Shown here piece after piece: positions 27,550 through 36,571 of a stretch of 56,190 nt of DNA. The DNA lies in assembly GCF_013816785.1 (NCBI RefSeq), contig NZ_JACDDV010000007.1:1-56190 (forward strand). Direction: 5' to 3'. This stretch comes from Sphingomonas sp. Lineage in GTDB: Bacteria; Pseudomonadota; Alphaproteobacteria; Sphingomonadales; Sphingomonadaceae. Both the position numbers and the translations under genes were made by a program. Under the pieces are notes generated by a model. The model ran no database searches, had not been told where the DNA came from, and was given only the letters and a program-made list of their open reading frames with translations. Every line of letters begins with the position of its first letter. Position 1 is the first letter of the stretch.

Positions 27550-28077
27550 TCAGTCGAAATGCAGCCGCCGATAGCGGCCGCGAAAATAGAGCAACGGATC
27601 AAGCCCCGGCTCGAAGGTCGCCTTGACCACCTCACCAACCAGAATGAAATGGTCGCCTCCCTCGTGCACCGCGTGCCGAGCGCATTCGAACACCGACAAC
27701 GAGTCCATCAGCACCGGCACCCCGTGCTCGCCCATTGACCATTCGGTCAGCCCGAAGCGATCTTCGACCCGGGTCGAGAAGGTAATCGAAGCCGGCTGCT
27801 GCCCGGTTTGGAGTACATTGACCGCGAACCGCTCGGCCCGCCCGAGCGCCGCCGCGCTGGCCGAGTTAAGCGCCACGCACACCAGCAGTAGCGGCGGGTC
27901 GAGACTGAGCGCGGTGAAGCTGTTGGCGGTCAGGCCAACCGGATTTTTCTCGTCATCAAGGCAGGTCACCACCGTGACCCCGGTGGCGAAGCAGCCAAGC
28001 GCATCGCGCAGCGTCCGCGGATCGGACCCTGTGCGATATTCCTGCGGCAAGGCGGCGTCACTCATCGCCGTCGCCAT
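27550..28077 (-). CDS. Flavin reductase family protein
   Basis: This 175-residue FMN-binding split-barrel protein has RDALGCFATGVTVVTCLDD, then VGLTANSFTALSLDPPLLLV, the hallmark block of the HpaC/flavin reductase family. It ends with PLLYFRGRYRRL. Such enzymes reduce FMN or FAD with NAD(P)H and pass the reduced flavin to a separate monooxygenase. It lies 21 bp after phhA on the same strand and may share its transcript. PhhA itself uses a pterin, so a flavin partner elsewhere must be assumed. An ATG four codons downstream is an alternative start. Confidence 0.88.
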   Translation of the reverse strand: MATAMSDAALPQEYRTGSDPRTLRDALGCFATGVTVVTCLDDEKNPVGLTANSFTALSLDPPLLLVCVALNSASAAALGRAERFAVNVLQTGQQPASITFSTRVEDRFGLTEWSMGEHGVPVLMDSLSVFECARHAVHEGGDHFILVGEVVKATFEPGLDPLLYFRGRYRRLHFD

Positions 28078-28098
28078 AGCGGCAGCCCGTTGCCCCTG

Positions 28099-28875
28099 TC
28101 ACCTAGCCAGCGCGCTCAAGCCCGCCAGATCGAGCGATTCAAGGGCCGCCGCCGTGCCTTCGAGTGAATCCGAGACGAAATAGAGCGGCTGGAAGACATC
28201 GTTGCGATAGGGCGTGTTCGCGGCAGCAGGCAGCGTAAAGCGCGGCCGCGACAAGTCCGCTTCAAGCGCGACATGCGCTTCGCCAAAGCTCGACGCGAGC
28301 CCGGCGCCAAGAATTTTCACCTCTCCCGCCTCGCGCGCCAGCCCGAACTCGACCGTGTGCCAATATAGCCGGGCGATAATCTCGCCATGCCCGGCCGCGA
28401 TCGCCGCCACGCCGAGCCGCCCGAGCGCCTGCATCAGCCGCGCCACCGGCGGGTGCGCCAGCATCGGCACGTGGCCGAAGATGTCGTGGAAGCAGTCGGG
28501 CTCCGTCAAATAGTCGAGGTTGTCGGCGCCGCGAATGAAGTTGCCGATCGGGAATCGCCGCTCGGCCAGCATCGCGAAGAAGGCCGCGTCCGGGACGATG
28601 CCCGCGACCGAGGCCAGCCCCCAACCGGTCTCGGGTTGAAGCCGAGCGTTCAATCGCCCAAGCTCGGGAATCCCTGGCTCGTCGAGCCCCAGCGCCGGGA
28701 TTCCGGCCAGAAACGGGGCCACGATCCGGTTCCCGAGATACGGCACTTGCCGTGTGAACAGCGTGTCCCAAACGCGATGCTCTTCCGCCGTGAATCGCGC
28801 CCAATCCTGCGGCACCAGATAGTCGCGCCAACTGGCGGGTGGGCGATCGGCGTTGCTGAAATCGGATTGGTACAT
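28099..28875 (-). CDS. phhA: Phenylalanine-4-hydroxylase
   Basis: The enzyme hydroxylates L-phenylalanine to L-tyrosine with tetrahydropterin, O2 and non-haem iron. The 258 residues match the bacterial monomeric form without the regulatory domain. The iron ligands are visible in PDCFHDIFGHVPML (two His) and in the Glu of WHTVEFGLAREAGE. ATG 28875 follows AAGGAG; the longer open frame upstream runs through a terminator and is not coding. The pterin-recycling enzyme PhhB and the next catabolic enzyme Hpd are within 3 kb. A leader ORF and an attenuator-like structure precede the gene. Confidence 0.95.
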   Translation of the reverse strand: MYQSDFSNADRPPASWRDYLVPQDWARFTAEEHRVWDTLFTRQVPYLGNRIVAPFLAGIPALGLDEPGIPELGRLNARLQPETGWGLASVAGIVPDAAFFAMLAERRFPIGNFIRGADNLDYLTEPDCFHDIFGHVPMLAHPPVARLMQALGRLGVAAIAAGHGEIIARLYWHTVEFGLAREAGEVKILGAGLASSFGEAHVALEADLSRPRFTLPAAANTPYRNDVFQPLYFVSDSLEGTAAALESLDLAGLSALAR

Positions 28876-28896
28876 CGGACGCTCCTTGAATGGGCA

Positions 28897-28929
28897 ATAA
28901 AAAACCCCGCCGGAGCGAGGCTTGGCGGG
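28897..28929 (-). terminator. Intrinsic terminator in the phhA leader (putative attenuator)
   Basis: On the minus strand CCCGCC (28929-28924) pairs with GGCGGG (28911-28906). An inner AGC/GCT helix strengthens the stem and a T-run (28904-28899) follows. It sits between the leader ORF and the phhA ribosome binding site, so it would stop transcription before phhA. The 5' arm can alternatively pair with the upstream segment at 28977-28968. Confidence 0.82.
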
Positions 28930-28994
28930 CGGTGGGTCGGACCGGGACACGATGCCTCAGCCGGTTTCCACCGCGCCAGGATAATAGGAAACCG
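28924..28994 (-). promoter_or_regulatory. Alternative hairpins of the phhA attenuator
   Basis: On the minus strand, segment 1 CGGTTTCC (28994-28987) precedes the Tyr codons. It can pair perfectly with GGAAACCG (28969-28962). Segment 2 GGCGCGGTGG (28977-28968) follows the Tyr codons and can pair with CCACCGCCCGCC (28935-28924) as ten base pairs with a 2-nt bulge. That second pairing would consume the 5' arm of the terminator. The two foldings are mutually exclusive, as in classical attenuators. Folding energies were not calculated. Confidence 0.65.
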
Positions 28995-29049
28995 CCGCGG
29001 CCGGGGAGGAGCGAAGAAGCGAGCGGCACTGATCGGCGAGGCGGTTCAT
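28957..29049 (-). CDS. Leader peptide of phhA with tandem Tyr codons
   Basis: This 30-codon ORF begins MNRLADQCRSLLRSS and ends VSYYPGAVETG. It has a strong ribosome binding site (AAGGAGGAGCC directly before ATG), better than that of most genes here. The tandem TAT TAT codons (28986-28981) lie in the loop between the paired segments 1 and 2 of the downstream RNA structure, the position required for ribosome stalling to control folding. The ORF is too short for a normal gene and nothing resembles a protein family. I infer it works as a tyrosine sensor for phhA, whose product is tyrosine. Confidence 0.68.
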   Translation of the reverse strand: MNRLADQCRSLLRSSPAAAVSYYPGAVETG

Positions 29050-29086
29050 GGCTCCTCCTTATCGCCTTAACCCGCTGAACGCTAGC

Positions 29087-29142
29087 TGTCCGAGCGGACA
29101 TCGCTTGTTGCGATAACGAAACTAGTGGAACTTTTGTTCCAC
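29087..29142. repeat. Three perfect inverted repeats in the phhA/ldt intergenic region
   Basis: Three palindromes follow each other: TGTCCG-AG-CGGACA (29087-29100), ATCGC-TTGTT-GCGAT (29100-29114) and GTGGAAC-TTTT-GTTCCAC (29125-29142). They lie between the phhA leader and the divergent L,D-transpeptidase gene, where promoters for both must be. They may be operators or, if transcribed, hairpins. I cannot assign a regulator. Confidence 0.5.
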
Positions 29143-29177
29143 GCCGGCATTAGGCATTCAAACGAAAGAGCAGCGAA

Positions 29178-29726
29178 ATGAACAAGTTAGTCCTGGCACT
29201 GGCGGCAGGAGCGTTCGCCCTGTCGGCGCCCCTTACCCCCGCGATTGCCTCGGTCGAGACCGAAGAAGCGCGCACGGCTGCGCTCGACGCAGCAGAGCTG
29301 GCGCGCCAGGACATGATTGCCACGTTCGGCGACAAGCAACTCAAGCCGGGCCAATATTTGTGGGACGCTGACGCCCCCGCTTCGGGCCCGGTCCGGGTGG
29401 TGATCAGTCTCGCCGATCAGATGGCCTATCTCTACCGCGGGGGTACGCTGGTTGCAGTGTCGACCATCTCCAGCGGCAAGTCGGGCAACGATACGCCCAC
29501 CGGCATCTTCCCGATTCTAGCCAAGAAACCGATTTATCACAGCCGCAAATACGACAATGCGCCGATGCCGTTCATGCAGCAGATTGATGAGTATGGCATC
29601 GCTCTGCACGCCGGCATGAACCCCGGCTATCCCGCCTCGCACGGCTGCGTCCGCCTGCCGGCGAAATTCGCGGCCAAGCTTTATGGCGTGACCGAGCTCG
29701 GATCGGAAGTCCTGATCGCGAGCTGA
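29178..29726 (+). CDS. L,D-transpeptidase (YkuD-type)
   Basis: This 182-residue secreted protein has a signal peptide (MNKLVLALAAGAFALSAPLT). The YkuD domain reads RVVISLADQMAYLYRGG then TPTGIFPI, and the catalytic block ALHAGMNPGYPASHGCVRLP contains the active Cys and His. L,D-transpeptidases cross-link peptidoglycan 3-3 or attach proteins to it. The length is typical for a single-domain form. It sits between the two pterin-linked genes phhA and phhB but on the other strand, with no functional link. Confidence 0.92.
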   Translation: MNKLVLALAAGAFALSAPLTPAIASVETEEARTAALDAAELARQDMIATFGDKQLKPGQYLWDADAPASGPVRVVISLADQMAYLYRGGTLVAVSTISSGKSGNDTPTGIFPILAKKPIYHSRKYDNAPMPFMQQIDEYGIALHAGMNPGYPASHGCVRLPAKFAAKLYGVTELGSEVLIAS

Positions 29727-29730
29727 CGCG

Positions 29731-29979
29731 TCAAGCGAGGGCGTCGATCGCACTCGCCAGCGCTACATCCCGCTCGGTCACCCCGCCGGCATCATGGCTG
29801 GTCAGGCGGAAGTCCACGCGATTCCAAACATTGGTGAATTCGGGATGATGGTCGACCTTCTCGGCGTGCATCGCGACGCGGGTGAGGAAGGCGAACGCCT
29901 CCGAAAAATCGGCGAACCGAAAACTCTTCTCGATTGCCTTGCCGTCGCCGCTCGCGGTCCAGCCGCCGGGGATGTCCAT
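29731..29979 (-). CDS. phhB: Pterin-4a-carbinolamine dehydratase
   Basis: This 82-residue protein contains the family site EKVDHHPEFTNVWNRVDFRL followed by the late His and Asp (TSHDAGGVTERD). It dehydrates the 4a-hydroxy-pterin formed by PhhA, which together with a reductase regenerates tetrahydropterin. The start is the ATG at 29979, because GAGGA lies 6 nt before it; the ATG two codons upstream would touch the GAGGA. It converges on the L,D-transpeptidase gene with 4 bp between stops. Confidence 0.92.
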   Translation of the reverse strand: MDIPGGWTASGDGKAIEKSFRFADFSEAFAFLTRVAMHAEKVDHHPEFTNVWNRVDFRLTSHDAGGVTERDVALASAIDALA

Positions 29980-30357
29980 GGTCATTCCTCGTCTTGCCAA
30001 CCATAGCGGGCGGCCCAAAAATCGCCGCTCCGCAGGCAGGTTATCCGACCATGCCGCGCGAATGCCCCAAATGCCAAGGCTCCAGGGACGAGGGCTAGTT
30101 ATCGCGTCCTGAGTCGTGTGAAAACCCTGTCCTATTGTAACCGTATAGGTTATATGTCGCTCGATGTGCGCCCTTGCTTCCTGGATCACCCTTCTTTGCG
30201 CGACCAGAACACGCGCGGCCATCGAACGGCACGGATTCGTGCTCCACCATCAACTTCATCAACTTTCCCTCCGTGGAAATCCAACGGATCGCGTTCCCGG
30301 CCTTGCCAATTTGCCCTTCGCGGAGCAGGGACTCGGGCCGAAAAGGAGATTTTCGCC
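29980..30357. other. Intergenic region between phhB and hpd
   Basis: This is a 378-bp divergent gap. One long plus-strand frame runs into hpd but its translation resembles no protein. The only structure I see is the inverted repeat at 30138-30152. It probably contains both promoters and a 5' untranslated region of hpd. Confidence 0.6.
30138..30152. promoter_or_regulatory. Candidate operator upstream of hpd
   Basis: TAACC-GTATA-GGTTA is a perfect 5-bp-arm palindrome in an AT-rich patch about 210 bp before hpd. Its size suits a MarR- or Lrp-type dimer. The AT-rich context may include a -10 element. Confidence 0.45.
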
Positions 30358-33091: not shown

Positions 33092-34080
33092 CCACATTGG
33101 CCGCGGTGGAGGAGCTTGTGGTCGGCCAACACCAGCGCAACCATCGCCTCGACCACTGGCGCGCCGCGAATGCCGACGCAGGGATCATGGCGGCCCCTGG
33201 TCGAGGCCTCGACTTCGTTGCCCGCCGCATCAATGCTGGCGATGGGGATGCGGATCGAGCTGGTCGGCTTGAACGCCACCCGGACGACGATCGGCTGCCC
33301 GGTCGAAATGCCACCGGCAATCCCGCCGGCATGGTTGCTCTCGAAGGCGGCGCCCGCCCGCATTGCGTCCGCATTCTCGCTGCCCTTGAGCCGTGCCGCA
33401 CCGAAGCCGTCGCCGATCTCGACACCCTTGACCGCGTTGATCCCCATGCACGCCGCTGCGAGTTCGGCGTCGAGCTTGGCATAGATCGGCGCGCCCCAGC
33501 CAGCAGGCACGCCGGTAGCCGCGCATTCGATCACCGCGCCAAGGCTGTCGCCACCCATGCGCGCTTCATCGAGCAGGGCGTCCCATCTGGCGGCATCTCC
33601 CTCGCCTCCGATCACGACCACTCTCGCCGAAATTTCGATCTCGGGAATCACCAGCCGCGCCACCGCCCCGCCGGCGACCCGCATCGCCGTTTCGCGGGCC
33701 GACGCTCTTCCCCCGCCGCGCGGATCGCGAAAAAACCCGTATTTGGCGTCATAGGCATAATCGGCATGGCCCGGCCGATAGGGCGCATCGGCCGGATAAT
33801 CAGCGCTGCGGGCATCGATATTGTCGATCATCATCGCGATCGGCGTGCCGGTCGTGCGGCCCTCGTAAACCCCCGACAAGATGCGCACCTTGTCGGGTTC
33901 CTGCCGCGCCGAGACATTCTTGTCGGTGCCGGGCCGGCGCAGGTCGAGGAAGCCTTGGACGTGCGCCTCGTCGAGCCCCAGCCCGGGCGGGCAGCCGTCG
34001 ATCACGCAGCCGATCGCTGGCGCATGGCTTTCGCCCCAGGTCGTCAGCCGCAATAGATGCCCAAAGCTGTTGATGCTCAT
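33088..34080 (-). CDS. aroC: Chorismate synthase
   Basis: The enzyme converts EPSP to chorismate with reduced FMN, the last step of the common aromatic pathway. Signatures are [18 protein letters not shown] near the start and [13 protein letters not shown]. The C-terminal block ends KLLHRGQCG. At 330 residues it is shorter than the usual 350-360; an internal segment after VVVIGGEGD seems to be missing. The normally conserved RRPG-x-S-x-x-T-T motif reads [13 protein letters not shown]. The catalytic region is otherwise intact. Its ATG overlaps the aroA stop (ATGA). Confidence 0.93.
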
Positions 34081-35360
34081 TGGATGTCGGCCCCCACGGA
34101 TCGCATCACCTCGATAAAGCCAGGGAAGCTGGTGGCAATCATTTCGGCCTGATCGACCTCGACCGGCTGTTCAGCGGCCAGACCGAGAGTGAGGAAGGCC
34201 ATGGCGATGCGGTGGTCGCCGTGGGTAACGACGCTGGCCCCGCCGCGCACCGCGCCACGGCCAAAAATGCGTAAGCAATCGCCGTCGGCAACCGCCGCCA
34301 CCCCACAGGCGATGAGCCCGGCGACCACCGCGCCCAGGCGGTCGCTTTCCTTGACGCGCAGTTCAGCCAGCCCCTCGATTAGGCTCTCGCCGTCGGCAAA
34401 GGCGCAAGCGACCGCCAGCGCAGGAATCTCGTCGATCATCGCCGGAATTTGCGAAGCGTTGACCTGGCATGGCGAAAGCAGGGAATGCCGGATACGAACA
34501 TCGGCGATGATCTCGCCCGACTGCAGCCGTTCCTGCGATAGCGACAGGTCCGCGCCCATCGCCTCGAGCGTCTCGTAAAGCCCGGTCCGCAGCGGATTGA
34601 CGATCACGCCGCGCGCGGCGACTTCCGATCCGGGCACGACCACCGCCGCGACCAGTGGAAAGGCGGCAGACGAGGGATCGGCGCCGATTGTAATGTTGCA
34701 CCCGATGAGCCCGCGCGGCTTGCCCAGACGGACCACGCCTTCTTGAACGGATACCTCACAGCCAAACTGGCCGAGCATGATCTCACTATGGTCGCGGCTC
34801 GGTACCGGCTCGATGACCGCCACTGGCGCGCCGGTTCCCAATCCGGCCAGCAGGATCGCCGACTTGACCTGCGCCGAGGCCGGGTCGTTGACATGCTCGA
34901 TTCCGCCCAGCCTTGCGCCATGCACCGTCAGCGGCAGCCGATCGTCGCCCTCGATCCATGCCCCCATCCGCCCCAGCGGCGCAATCACCCGGCGCATCGG
35001 CCGGGCCGACAGCGAACCGTCACCGGTGAAGGTCACGCTAACCCCTTCCATCCCCGCCACCGCGCCGATCAGCAGCCGCGCCGCGGTGCCGCTATTGCCG
35101 CAATCGGCCGGATCAACGGGCGAGGTCCAGCGCGCGCCCTCGACTCGCCACTCGTTCGGTTCCAACCGGTCGACCTTCGCCCCGAACGCCGCCACCGCTC
35201 GCGCCGTCGCCAGCACGTCGTCGCTTTCGAGCAGGCCGGAAATGCGCGTCTCGCCCTTCGCCATTGCCCCGAGGATCAATGCCCGGTGCGAGCAGCTCTT
35301 GTCGCCGGGAATCGCCACTTCGCCGCCGAGCGGACCGCGCCGCCGGGCGACCAGCCTCAC
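34077..35360 (-). CDS. aroA: EPSP synthase (3-phosphoshikimate 1-carboxyvinyltransferase), CP4-like class
   Basis: This 427-residue enzyme joins shikimate-3-phosphate and PEP. Blocks visible are [50 protein letters not shown] and [16 protein letters not shown]. The pattern resembles class II (CP4-type) enzymes. The position that is Ala in CP4 (GNAAT) is Gly here (GNSGT), so natural glyphosate tolerance is not predicted. The GTG start overlaps the DAHP synthase stop by 4 bp; the longer open frame upstream lies inside that gene. Confidence 0.94.
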
Positions 35361-36571
35361 GCCGTGCGCGCTTTCGCCGGGGCGAGCAGGGCGGCTAGAT
35401 GGTCGGCCAGGTCGATCGTTTGAGTGCGATTGAGCCGGGGGTCGCACGCCGTCAGCCAGTTTGCGTCCAGTTCGTCGACCGATGCCGGTCCGCGCCCGCC
35501 GAGGCACTCGGTCACATCGAGCGCGCTCATTTCCAAGTGCACCCCGCCGGCATGAACGCCCTCGACACGGGCGATGGCGACGAAGGCATCGATCTCGGCG
35601 AGGATGTCAGGCAAGCGGCGGATCTTGCGCGTGCCCGCCACTGTGGTGTTGCCGTGCATTGGGTCGATCGTCCAGATCGCCGCCAGCCCCGCTTCGCGCG
35701 TCGCTCGCATCAGCGGAGGCAGCACCTCGCCGATGGTCCGCGCGCCGAAGCGGCCGATCAGCACGAGTTTGCCCGGCCGGTTGGCGGGATCAAGACGGTC
35801 GCACAAGGCGAGCAGATCGTCGGCGTCCAGCGCCGGCCCACATTTTACCCCGACGACATTCTCGATTCCCGACAGATAATCGGCATGGGCGCCGTCCACC
35901 TCGCGCGTGCGGTCGCCGAGCCACAGCATATGCCCCGAAGTCGCCCACCAACGGCCCTCCGCGTCGCGGCGAGTTAGCGCTTGCTCGTAGGGCAGCAGCA
36001 GCGCCTCGTGGCTGGTGAAGATCGGCCGCCCCGGCTCTCGCGCGGCGGCGAGGCTGGCGGCCGCGCCGACCGACTGGAGGTGGGCGCGGATCATTCGCGC
36101 CGGATCAGGTTGGCGGGCGACGGTATCGAACGCTGCGCCGTTGATGATGTCGCCGCGATAGGCCGGCAGAGTCGAATGCTCCTGCGTCTCCAGGGCGGAC
36201 GTGCGCGGCTTGGCGAACTGACCGGCGATGCGGGCAATCTCGATCAACGGGCCGCCCGCGACCGGGTCGAGCCGCGCGGCCATCGCGTCGAACAGGCTGG
36301 CAAGGCTAGCGACCCGCTCGGCGACCGGATCGTCGAAGCTTTCGGCGCAATCGCCGCCCTGGAGTAGCAAGCCGCGATCGCCAGCGAGCGTCGCCATGGC
36401 AATGCGAAGGTGGCGCGCCTCGTCGATCGCAATCACTGGTGGAGCGGCGGCCAGCCGCGCCTCGACTGCCGCCAGCGCATGCGCATCGGCATAGGTCGGC
36501 TGCTGGCGCGCGCGGCGTCGACGCCACGAAGCGGGGTGCCAGCCCTCAGTGGAGATTAGCGTCGCACTCAT
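35357..36571 (-). CDS. Class II 3-deoxy-7-phosphoheptulonate (DAHP) synthase
   Basis: The first enzyme of the aromatic pathway condenses PEP and erythrose-4-phosphate. The 404 residues show the plant/mycobacterial type II blocks: QGGDCAESFDD, TSHEALLLPYEQALTR, GVKCGPALDADDLL, IWTIDPMHGNT and GGVHLEMSALDVTECLGG. Type II enzymes are usually about 450 residues. This one is short at the N-terminus, starting nearly at WHPASWRRRRARQQPTYAD, so N-terminal regulatory elements are reduced. The start ATG (MSATLIST) was preferred over a long upstream extension that overlaps the divergent gene. It heads the aro operon. Confidence 0.92.
   Translation of the reverse strand: MSATLISTEGWHPASWRRRRARQQPTYADAHALAAVEARLAAAPPVIAIDEARHLRIAMATLAGDRGLLLQGGDCAESFDDPVAERVASLASLFDAMAARLDPVAGGPLIEIARIAGQFAKPRTSALETQEHSTLPAYRGDIINGAAFDTVARQPDPARMIRAHLQSVGAAASLAAAREPGRPIFTSHEALLLPYEQALTRRDAEGRWWATSGHMLWLGDRTREVDGAHADYLSGIENVVGVKCGPALDADDLLALCDRLDPANRPGKLVLIGRFGARTIGEVLPPLMRATREAGLAAIWTIDPMHGNTTVAGTRKIRRLPDILAEIDAFVAIARVEGVHAGGVHLEMSALDVTECLGGRGPASVDELDANWLTACDPRLNRTQTIDLADHLAALLAPAKARTA

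Follow-up and report, generated by a model that had tools for sequence, protein, structure and literature searches.

In enterobacteria, the leaders of pheA/pheST, his, leu, thr and trp combine a codon run, a terminator and an alternative hairpin formed where the leader ORF ends. In attenuators of the Trp and His type, a 1:2 helix frees the terminator when the leader is unstalled; such a helix is not required in all leader-peptide attenuators. Antiterminators that overlap the terminator by only a few bases also exist, as in B. subtilis trp. The accessible part of a review (PMC11802643) names pheL and trpL among the enterobacterial leaders and reports, after Neshat et al. (2014), that the AroR leader of Corynebacterium glutamicum (Phe-Tyr-Phe), located before the aroF operon, responds to Phe limitation and is unaffected by Tyr availability. 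In the sources as far as they were accessible, AroR is the nearest described case that we met. Candidate codon-run leaders include uORFC-13-1, a Phe-codon uORF before aroF in Acholeplasma, and uORFC-8-2, with Cys codons before cysS in Rhodobacterales (both in the accessible text of PMC8632094). Attenuators have been predicted ahead of tyrA operons, for example hisHb > tyrA in Agrobacterium, in the Merino database as cited in the part of PMC1173090 available to us. The literature searched, which leaves out most subscription papers, yielded no description of a leader peptide that responds to Tyr.

Here we analysed a 56,190-nucleotide stretch of DNA (the window) from a Sphingomonas sp. genome, G000, in which the leader system lies on the minus strand. 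To judge from the names of the related loci, the genus of the window is Sphingomicrobium in GTDB's sense. An initial annotation had described a 30-codon ORF with tandem TAT TAT codons and a rho-independent terminator upstream of a phenylalanine hydroxylase gene, and we indeed found each of these elements in place. The gene phhA for phenylalanine 4-hydroxylase occupies 28099..28875 (stop codon included, ATG at 28875) and matches PF00351 (Biopterin_H) with an E value of 7.7e-40. The leader ORF, MNRLADQCRSLLRSSPAAAVSYYPGAVETG followed by its stop codon, lies at 28957..29049 and was identified by ORF reading and by leaders of the same kind in the genus; its TAT TAT codons are at 28981..28986, where relatives carry YY, YYY or YxY with TAT/TAC variation. 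Between the leader ORF and phhA, at about 28899-28929, there is an intrinsic terminator composed of a GC-rich hairpin and a U-tract. It can be drawn as hairpin T (CCCGCC...GGCGGG, 28906..28929) or as an alternative hairpin T' (AAGCCTCGC TCCG GCGGGGTTT, 28899..28923 with the U-tract), which uses the same U-tract and is compatible in equilibrium folding of the window with a second hairpin, P2. The arms of P2, located by folding and covariation, are the end of the leader ORF (5' arm, 28961..28974) and the region directly before the terminator (3' arm, 28929..28945). An Rfam search of window positions 28000-30000 returned four matches, the best at 17 bits against a gathering score of 45, and no leader or T-box family. 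The next gene upstream of the leader is a divergent ykuD gene, and a palindrome, GTGGAACAAAAGTTCCAC, lies at 29125-29142 between ykuD and the leader promoter, where it could be an operator.

To place this leader among its relatives, we compared 71 genomes of the genus, 65 of which carry phhA; they hold 69 phhA genes, and the upstream region was read for all 69. A leader and terminator with YY or YxY near the ORF end (within the last 17 residues) were present at 62 of the 69 genes, with endings such as YYYPDEVGIG, YYYLSAVETG, YYYPREAGTS and YAYGRAVETS. This number is the union of two automatic counts, 59/69 (L004, L114 and L124 missed by the terminator pattern) and, with another pattern, 61/69 (L015 missed), each missed leader having been recognised on reading its locus. 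Homologues without the ORF or its Tyr codons, which the initial annotation had named as evidence that would speak against it, are few: four genes (L008, L011, L116, L117) keep the leader and terminator with Tyr single or spaced, and three (L128, L129, L130) have no leader. The latter are paralogues in the tyrA-bearing genomes G007 and G010, both of which have PF02153 matches, that of G010 split in two pieces. With degenerate copies included, a leader of this kind is found at 66 of the 69 phhA genes. Two genomes carry two phhA copies, each with its own Tyr leader (L139 and L140 in G064; L019 and L131 in G024).

Outside the genus, the leader was present at all six phhA loci read from two sister genera, g75 (L162, L164, L167, L168) and g66 (L165, L166), and was not seen in 65 other phhA upstream regions. 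These leader-less controls comprise 18 family loci (L163, L169-L185), 19 loci from TyrA-less genera (L190-L208), 10 order loci (L150-L159) and 18 loci from L049-L067 without L062. In the family, 254 genomes have phhA, and upstream regions were read in 49 of them, one copy each; of one collection of 80 loci, 43 (L068-L110) were left out of the leader reading, and L160 (101 nt) was unusable. Dropping duplicates, one spurious ORF (L119) and the four degenerate leaders gave 67 distinct leaders, 57 of which are in alignment A1. Three kinds of candidate among the controls were inspected and not counted: Tyr pairs at L065 and other Caulobacterales loci, which by eye are the end of the upstream gene; MCGYYYWLWHGV at L158, 360 nt upstream, with a DYYNSP ORF running into phhA and no terminator; and a GTG ORF with spaced Tyr at L066, whose terminator is upstream of the ORF end and resembles one belonging to the preceding gene.

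Those leader loci that carry names are listed as Sphingomonas or Sphingomicrobium, among them S. cremea, S. edaphi, S. daechungensis, S. sediminicola and S. rhizophila. When 105 PhhA proteins were placed in a tree, the 50 rows labelled as having a leader made up one side of a branch with support 100/100, which is consistent with a single origin of the leader; the leader label in this tree includes the four degenerate leaders, and L128-L130 and the 601-nt loci L125-L160 are absent from it. One branch of the tree (L005-L011, L116-L118, L120) holds Sphingomicrobium lutaoense and S. astaxanthinifaciens, which we take to be marine. Its Tyr run is YxY, YY or reduced to a single Tyr, with Arg, Trp and Cys codons nearby, and a loss or change of leader specificity is possible in this group.

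A first scan placed a hairpin with a T-run 26-36 nt beyond the leader stop in all 67 distinct leaders (an inner hairpin being picked for L001). A second scan returned terminators at every leader locus except L118 (66 of 67), compared with 2 of the 65 leader-less phhA regions (L055 and L066), the match at L055 having no true T-run. The pattern TATTATTAT-N45..75-GGCGGGKTTTTT occurred in 18 of the 71 genus genomes, one copy each and in all 18 directly upstream of phhA, and the reversed control pattern gave no match in the same 71 genomes; the pattern misses leaders like that of the window because it requires three TAT codons. An order-wide search of 396 genomes with a two-Tyr-codon pattern gave mostly noise in genomes beyond the family, in which the reversed control matched as well, and the resulting loci L209-L238 were left out of the leader reading. 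The upstream neighbour of phhA is not fixed, as ykuD is divergent in the window and the pterin dehydratase gene lies at different distances in different loci, which lends something to the view that a chance ORF lies beside the ordinary terminator of an upstream gene. That view is contradicted by the comparisons, in which Tyr codons, spacing and covariation are conserved and terminators are found in only the two controls above, and we give it practically no credence.

The initial annotation had also proposed two mutually exclusive RNA pairings after the Tyr codons, and an alignment of related loci as the check for Tyr codons and stem covariation. Both pairings can be drawn; the alignment supported the Tyr codons and one of the two stems. 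This stem is P2, formed between the last part of the leader ORF and the stretch immediately preceding the terminator (GCGGTGG/CCACCGC). Its arms change together between groups of loci, from GCGGTGG/CCACCGC to CGAGGTTGG/CCAACCTCG and GGAGGCTGG/CCAGCCTCC, with two-sided changes at position 2 (C-G/A-T/G-C), position 5 (T-A/C-G) and position 6 (G-C/T-A). The helix score of P2 with its own partners was 17.98, against 14.00 (sd 0.45) for permuted partners and with none of 1000 permutations as high (66 of 67 loci, L015 left out), and for 12 codon-group representatives it was 15.9 against 13.1 with 4 of 5000 as high; these permutation figures are not probabilities, because the permutation ignores relatedness. 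In a seven-pair register, 448 of 469 cells were paired, whereas 500 swaps averaged 402 paired cells and never exceeded 417; the best-fitting partner was picked in the swaps just as in the data. As judged from these sequence comparisons, it is well supported that P2 is real and under selection. The other pairing, CGGTTTCC/GGAAACCG, corresponds to a 1:2 helix and was no better than shuffles (z of 0.23 in the window, mean z of -0.12 over 67 loci), and no conserved 1:2 helix was found in these 67 loci.

How P2 relates to the terminator differs between species. An arm shared by the terminator and P2, as originally suggested, holds for only part of the leaders: in the scan of 67 loci, P2 overlaps the terminator stem by at least 6 nt in 23, by 0-3 nt in 36, and is separated from it by a gap in eight. 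The window falls among these eight because the scan took T'; with T, a single nucleotide (28929) is common to the P2 3' arm and the terminator. As P2 merely abuts the terminator in about half of the loci, a strict 2:3 versus 3:4 switch is unproven. When a ribosome footprint was imposed in equilibrium folding, mean pairing of the terminator 3' arm was 0.96 with the footprint at the first Tyr codon and 0.99 with it at the stop, by a measure that counts any pairing within 34 nt. In the stalled state this pairing fell below 0.5 in 1 of 67 loci and a terminator-type hairpin stayed in 66. Such folding failed to separate stalled from terminated states because P2 often abuts the terminator, and the two often lie side by side in minimum-energy folds (19 of 67 loci folded explicitly).

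This coexistence in many of the minimum-energy folds shown, together with the small overlaps, would also suit a leader that senses Tyr and acts by something other than classical readthrough, namely RNA stability, pausing of RNA polymerase, or the action in trans of a peptide or a terminated RNA. A parallel is given in the accessible part of PMC7298713, where trans roles are reported for the leaderless attenuator RNA and the leader peptide of the Sinorhizobium meliloti rnTrpL/peTrpL system. The residues that precede the Tyr run vary, but the Tyr run itself and the coding of P2 are conserved, which points to a role in cis, and an unregulated terminator so close before phhA would presumably be costly. 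We consider an output of this other kind rather unlikely.

It is instead likely, on the comparative sequence evidence, that the phhA leader is a tyrosine-specific, ribosome-mediated transcription attenuator. With ample Tyr-tRNA, the ribosome would reach the leader stop and cover the P2 5' arm; the terminator, about 30 nt downstream, would then form and stop transcription ahead of phhA. Under Tyr-tRNA shortage, the ribosome would stall on the leader Tyr codons and leave the ORF end free to pair with the pre-terminator region as P2. This hairpin would hinder the terminator, through shared bases in some species and by abutting the terminator foot in others, and RNA polymerase would read into phhA, so that tyrosine could be made from phenylalanine. 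The ribosome stalling, the direction of control by tyrosine and the antitermination step are what we infer here, and P2 might prevent termination by sharing the foot of the stem, by hindering the polymerase sterically at its RNA exit, or kinetically.

We further examined how translation of the leader could begin. The initial annotation had credited the ORF with an excellent ribosome binding site. In the window, an SD-like AAGGAGGA is present at 29053-29060 and its strength is -11.1 kcal/mol, but this is an exception among the leaders and not a general feature: SD strength at the 67 leader ATGs averaged -3.4 kcal/mol (17 of 67 at -5 or below), close to random positions (mean -3.0 kcal/mol, 27% at -5 or below), compared with a mean of -5.9 kcal/mol at phhA starts (21 of 25 at -5 or below). 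The SD region of the window leader (29051-29058, minus strand) can also pair with GCTCCTCC at 29005-29012 inside the leader ORF. A candidate -10 hexamer, GATAAG, lies at 29058..29063, 8 nt before the leader ATG, and a similar hexamer with at least 4 of 6 matches is found 7-9 nt before the ATG in 42 of 67 leaders, the ATG being chosen for best match. Upstream of the hexamer, relatives carry by eye TTCAG-type elements (TTGATCGTTCAG, TGGCGTTCAG, TTCCATTCAG), or TTGACA-type elements in the sister genera; the window copy of the TTCAG-type element, TAGCGTTCAG at 29075..29084, would be the -35 region. A scan with the sigma-70 consensus found no site in the candidate -35/-10 region of the window. Transcription probably begins at the leader AUG or no more than a few bases from it, a position like that reported for S. 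meliloti trpL (PMC7298713, accessible part), and in most relatives the leader would be read from a leaderless mRNA, as judged by promoter position only.

TyrA (PF02153) scored over the cut-off in 4 of the 71 genus genomes compared with 263 of 298 sampled family genomes (a sample that includes 6 genomes of the genus of the window), and a profile search of G000 gave no TyrA match. This rarity in the genus, against its commonness in the family, suggests that PhhA is probably the main tyrosine source. Most of the genus thus probably makes tyrosine by hydroxylating phenylalanine, some perhaps imported, where the TyrA profile stands for the route examined. Prephenate dehydratase (PF00800) was matched in 14 of 71 genus genomes and not in G000; chorismate synthase was matched in 48 of 71, including a G000 copy inside the window, and not in 23. 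The window holds genes for chorismate synthase (33112-34053) and EPSP synthase (34080-35507), both on the minus strand, in spite of the lack of any match to PF02153 or PF00800 in G000. Three genomes that are 99-100% complete (G023, G074, G080) have neither a phhA match nor TyrA over the cut-off and are possible tyrosine auxotrophs. A gene of the phhB type for pterin-4a-carbinolamine dehydratase lies near phhA on the same strand (29731-29979, minus strand), and a homologue on the phhA strand was found at 29 of 44 genus loci searched, at most 600 nt upstream of phhA in 18 of the 44.

In the accessible parts of the literature, most descriptions of bacterial PhhA present it as catabolic (PMC7311316, PMC1173090, PMC3223726, PMC5343134), and gammaproteobacterial phhAB as a TyrR/PhhR target (PMC1173090, PMC3223726, PMC5343134). 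This usual description would fit a leader that raises phhA for phenylalanine breakdown when Tyr or Phe is abundant, as would HPPD, a Tyr-degradation enzyme encoded in the window as well as in 67 of the 71 genomes of the genus. TyrA, however, is missing in most of the genus, and its near-general loss points to a biosynthetic role of phhA; a terminator that forms with the ribosome at the stop would, in our model, mean that abundant Tyr switches phhA off. We hold the catabolic logic to be very improbable. PhhA has been proposed as a tyrosine-synthesis route from mutant fitness data in Dyella japonica and Echinicola and from mutant growth in Legionella (PMC7311316, as far as accessible). Equating the leader with TyrA loss would be too simple, given that phhA lacks the leader in 19 genomes of other genera that are without TyrA; TyrA matches and the leader occur together in G004, G010 and G090.

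Taken together, the leader has a run of codons specifying the amino acid that the downstream gene supplies, a terminator before the structural gene and an ORF-end hairpin under selection. The originally proposed Tyr attenuator for phhA is strongly supported by the Tyr codons, the terminator, one covarying hairpin and TyrA loss; its 1:2 pairing and a general SD-driven translation are not supported. We counted against the attenuator the paired terminator in stalled-state folds, the compatibility of T' with P2, the small or absent P2 overlap, the 4/69 degenerate leaders, the 19 TyrA-less leader-less genomes, the genomes with both TyrA and leader, and HPPD in 67/71 genomes. More tentatively, and as a possibility to which we give well below even chances, it may represent a previously undescribed amino-acid class: a leaderless Tyr attenuator that arose once in Sphingomicrobium and close relatives as a formerly catabolic hydroxylase took over tyrosine synthesis, and whose action in many species depends on a hairpin abutting the terminator foot and not on a shared-strand switch. 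A Tyr attenuator of phhA would let tyrosine join the amino acids sensed by leader-peptide attenuation, and would link a regulator to pathway rewiring, with TyrA lost and PhhA the probable tyrosine source, across most of the genus. The 67 naturally varied leaders would offer a direct test bed for the need of strict terminator/antiterminator overlap.

Among the described systems, C. glutamicum AroR shares with the phhA leader a Tyr codon in a leader peptide and an aromatic amino-acid gene, and stalling on AroR enhances transcription (accessible part of PMC11802643); unlike in AroR, the gene and phylum are others and the leader run is Tyr only in most loci. The predicted Agrobacterium hisHb > tyrA attenuator likewise concerns a tyrosine-synthesis gene in an alphaproteobacterium, but a different gene, and its description, as far as accessible, has no Tyr leader peptide. 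Like uORFC-13-1 and uORFC-8-2 (as described in the text available), our leader is a candidate codon-run leader found by comparison, and it differs from them in amino acid, gene and lineage. S. meliloti trpL/rnTrpL has in common with it a short ORF, a run of product-amino-acid codons and a terminator before the structural gene, with Trp codons before trpE(G) in the one and Tyr codons before a hydroxylase gene in the other; the 5' end of the trpL RNA is at the ORF ATG, and it is thus leaderless (PMC7298713, accessible part), whereas for the phhA leader this is suggested by promoter position only. With the enterobacterial leaders, the phhA leader shares the codon run, the terminator and the ORF-end hairpin, and it departs from them in sensing another amino acid, in lacking a conserved 1:2 helix, and in having a hairpin that abuts the terminator in about half of the loci.
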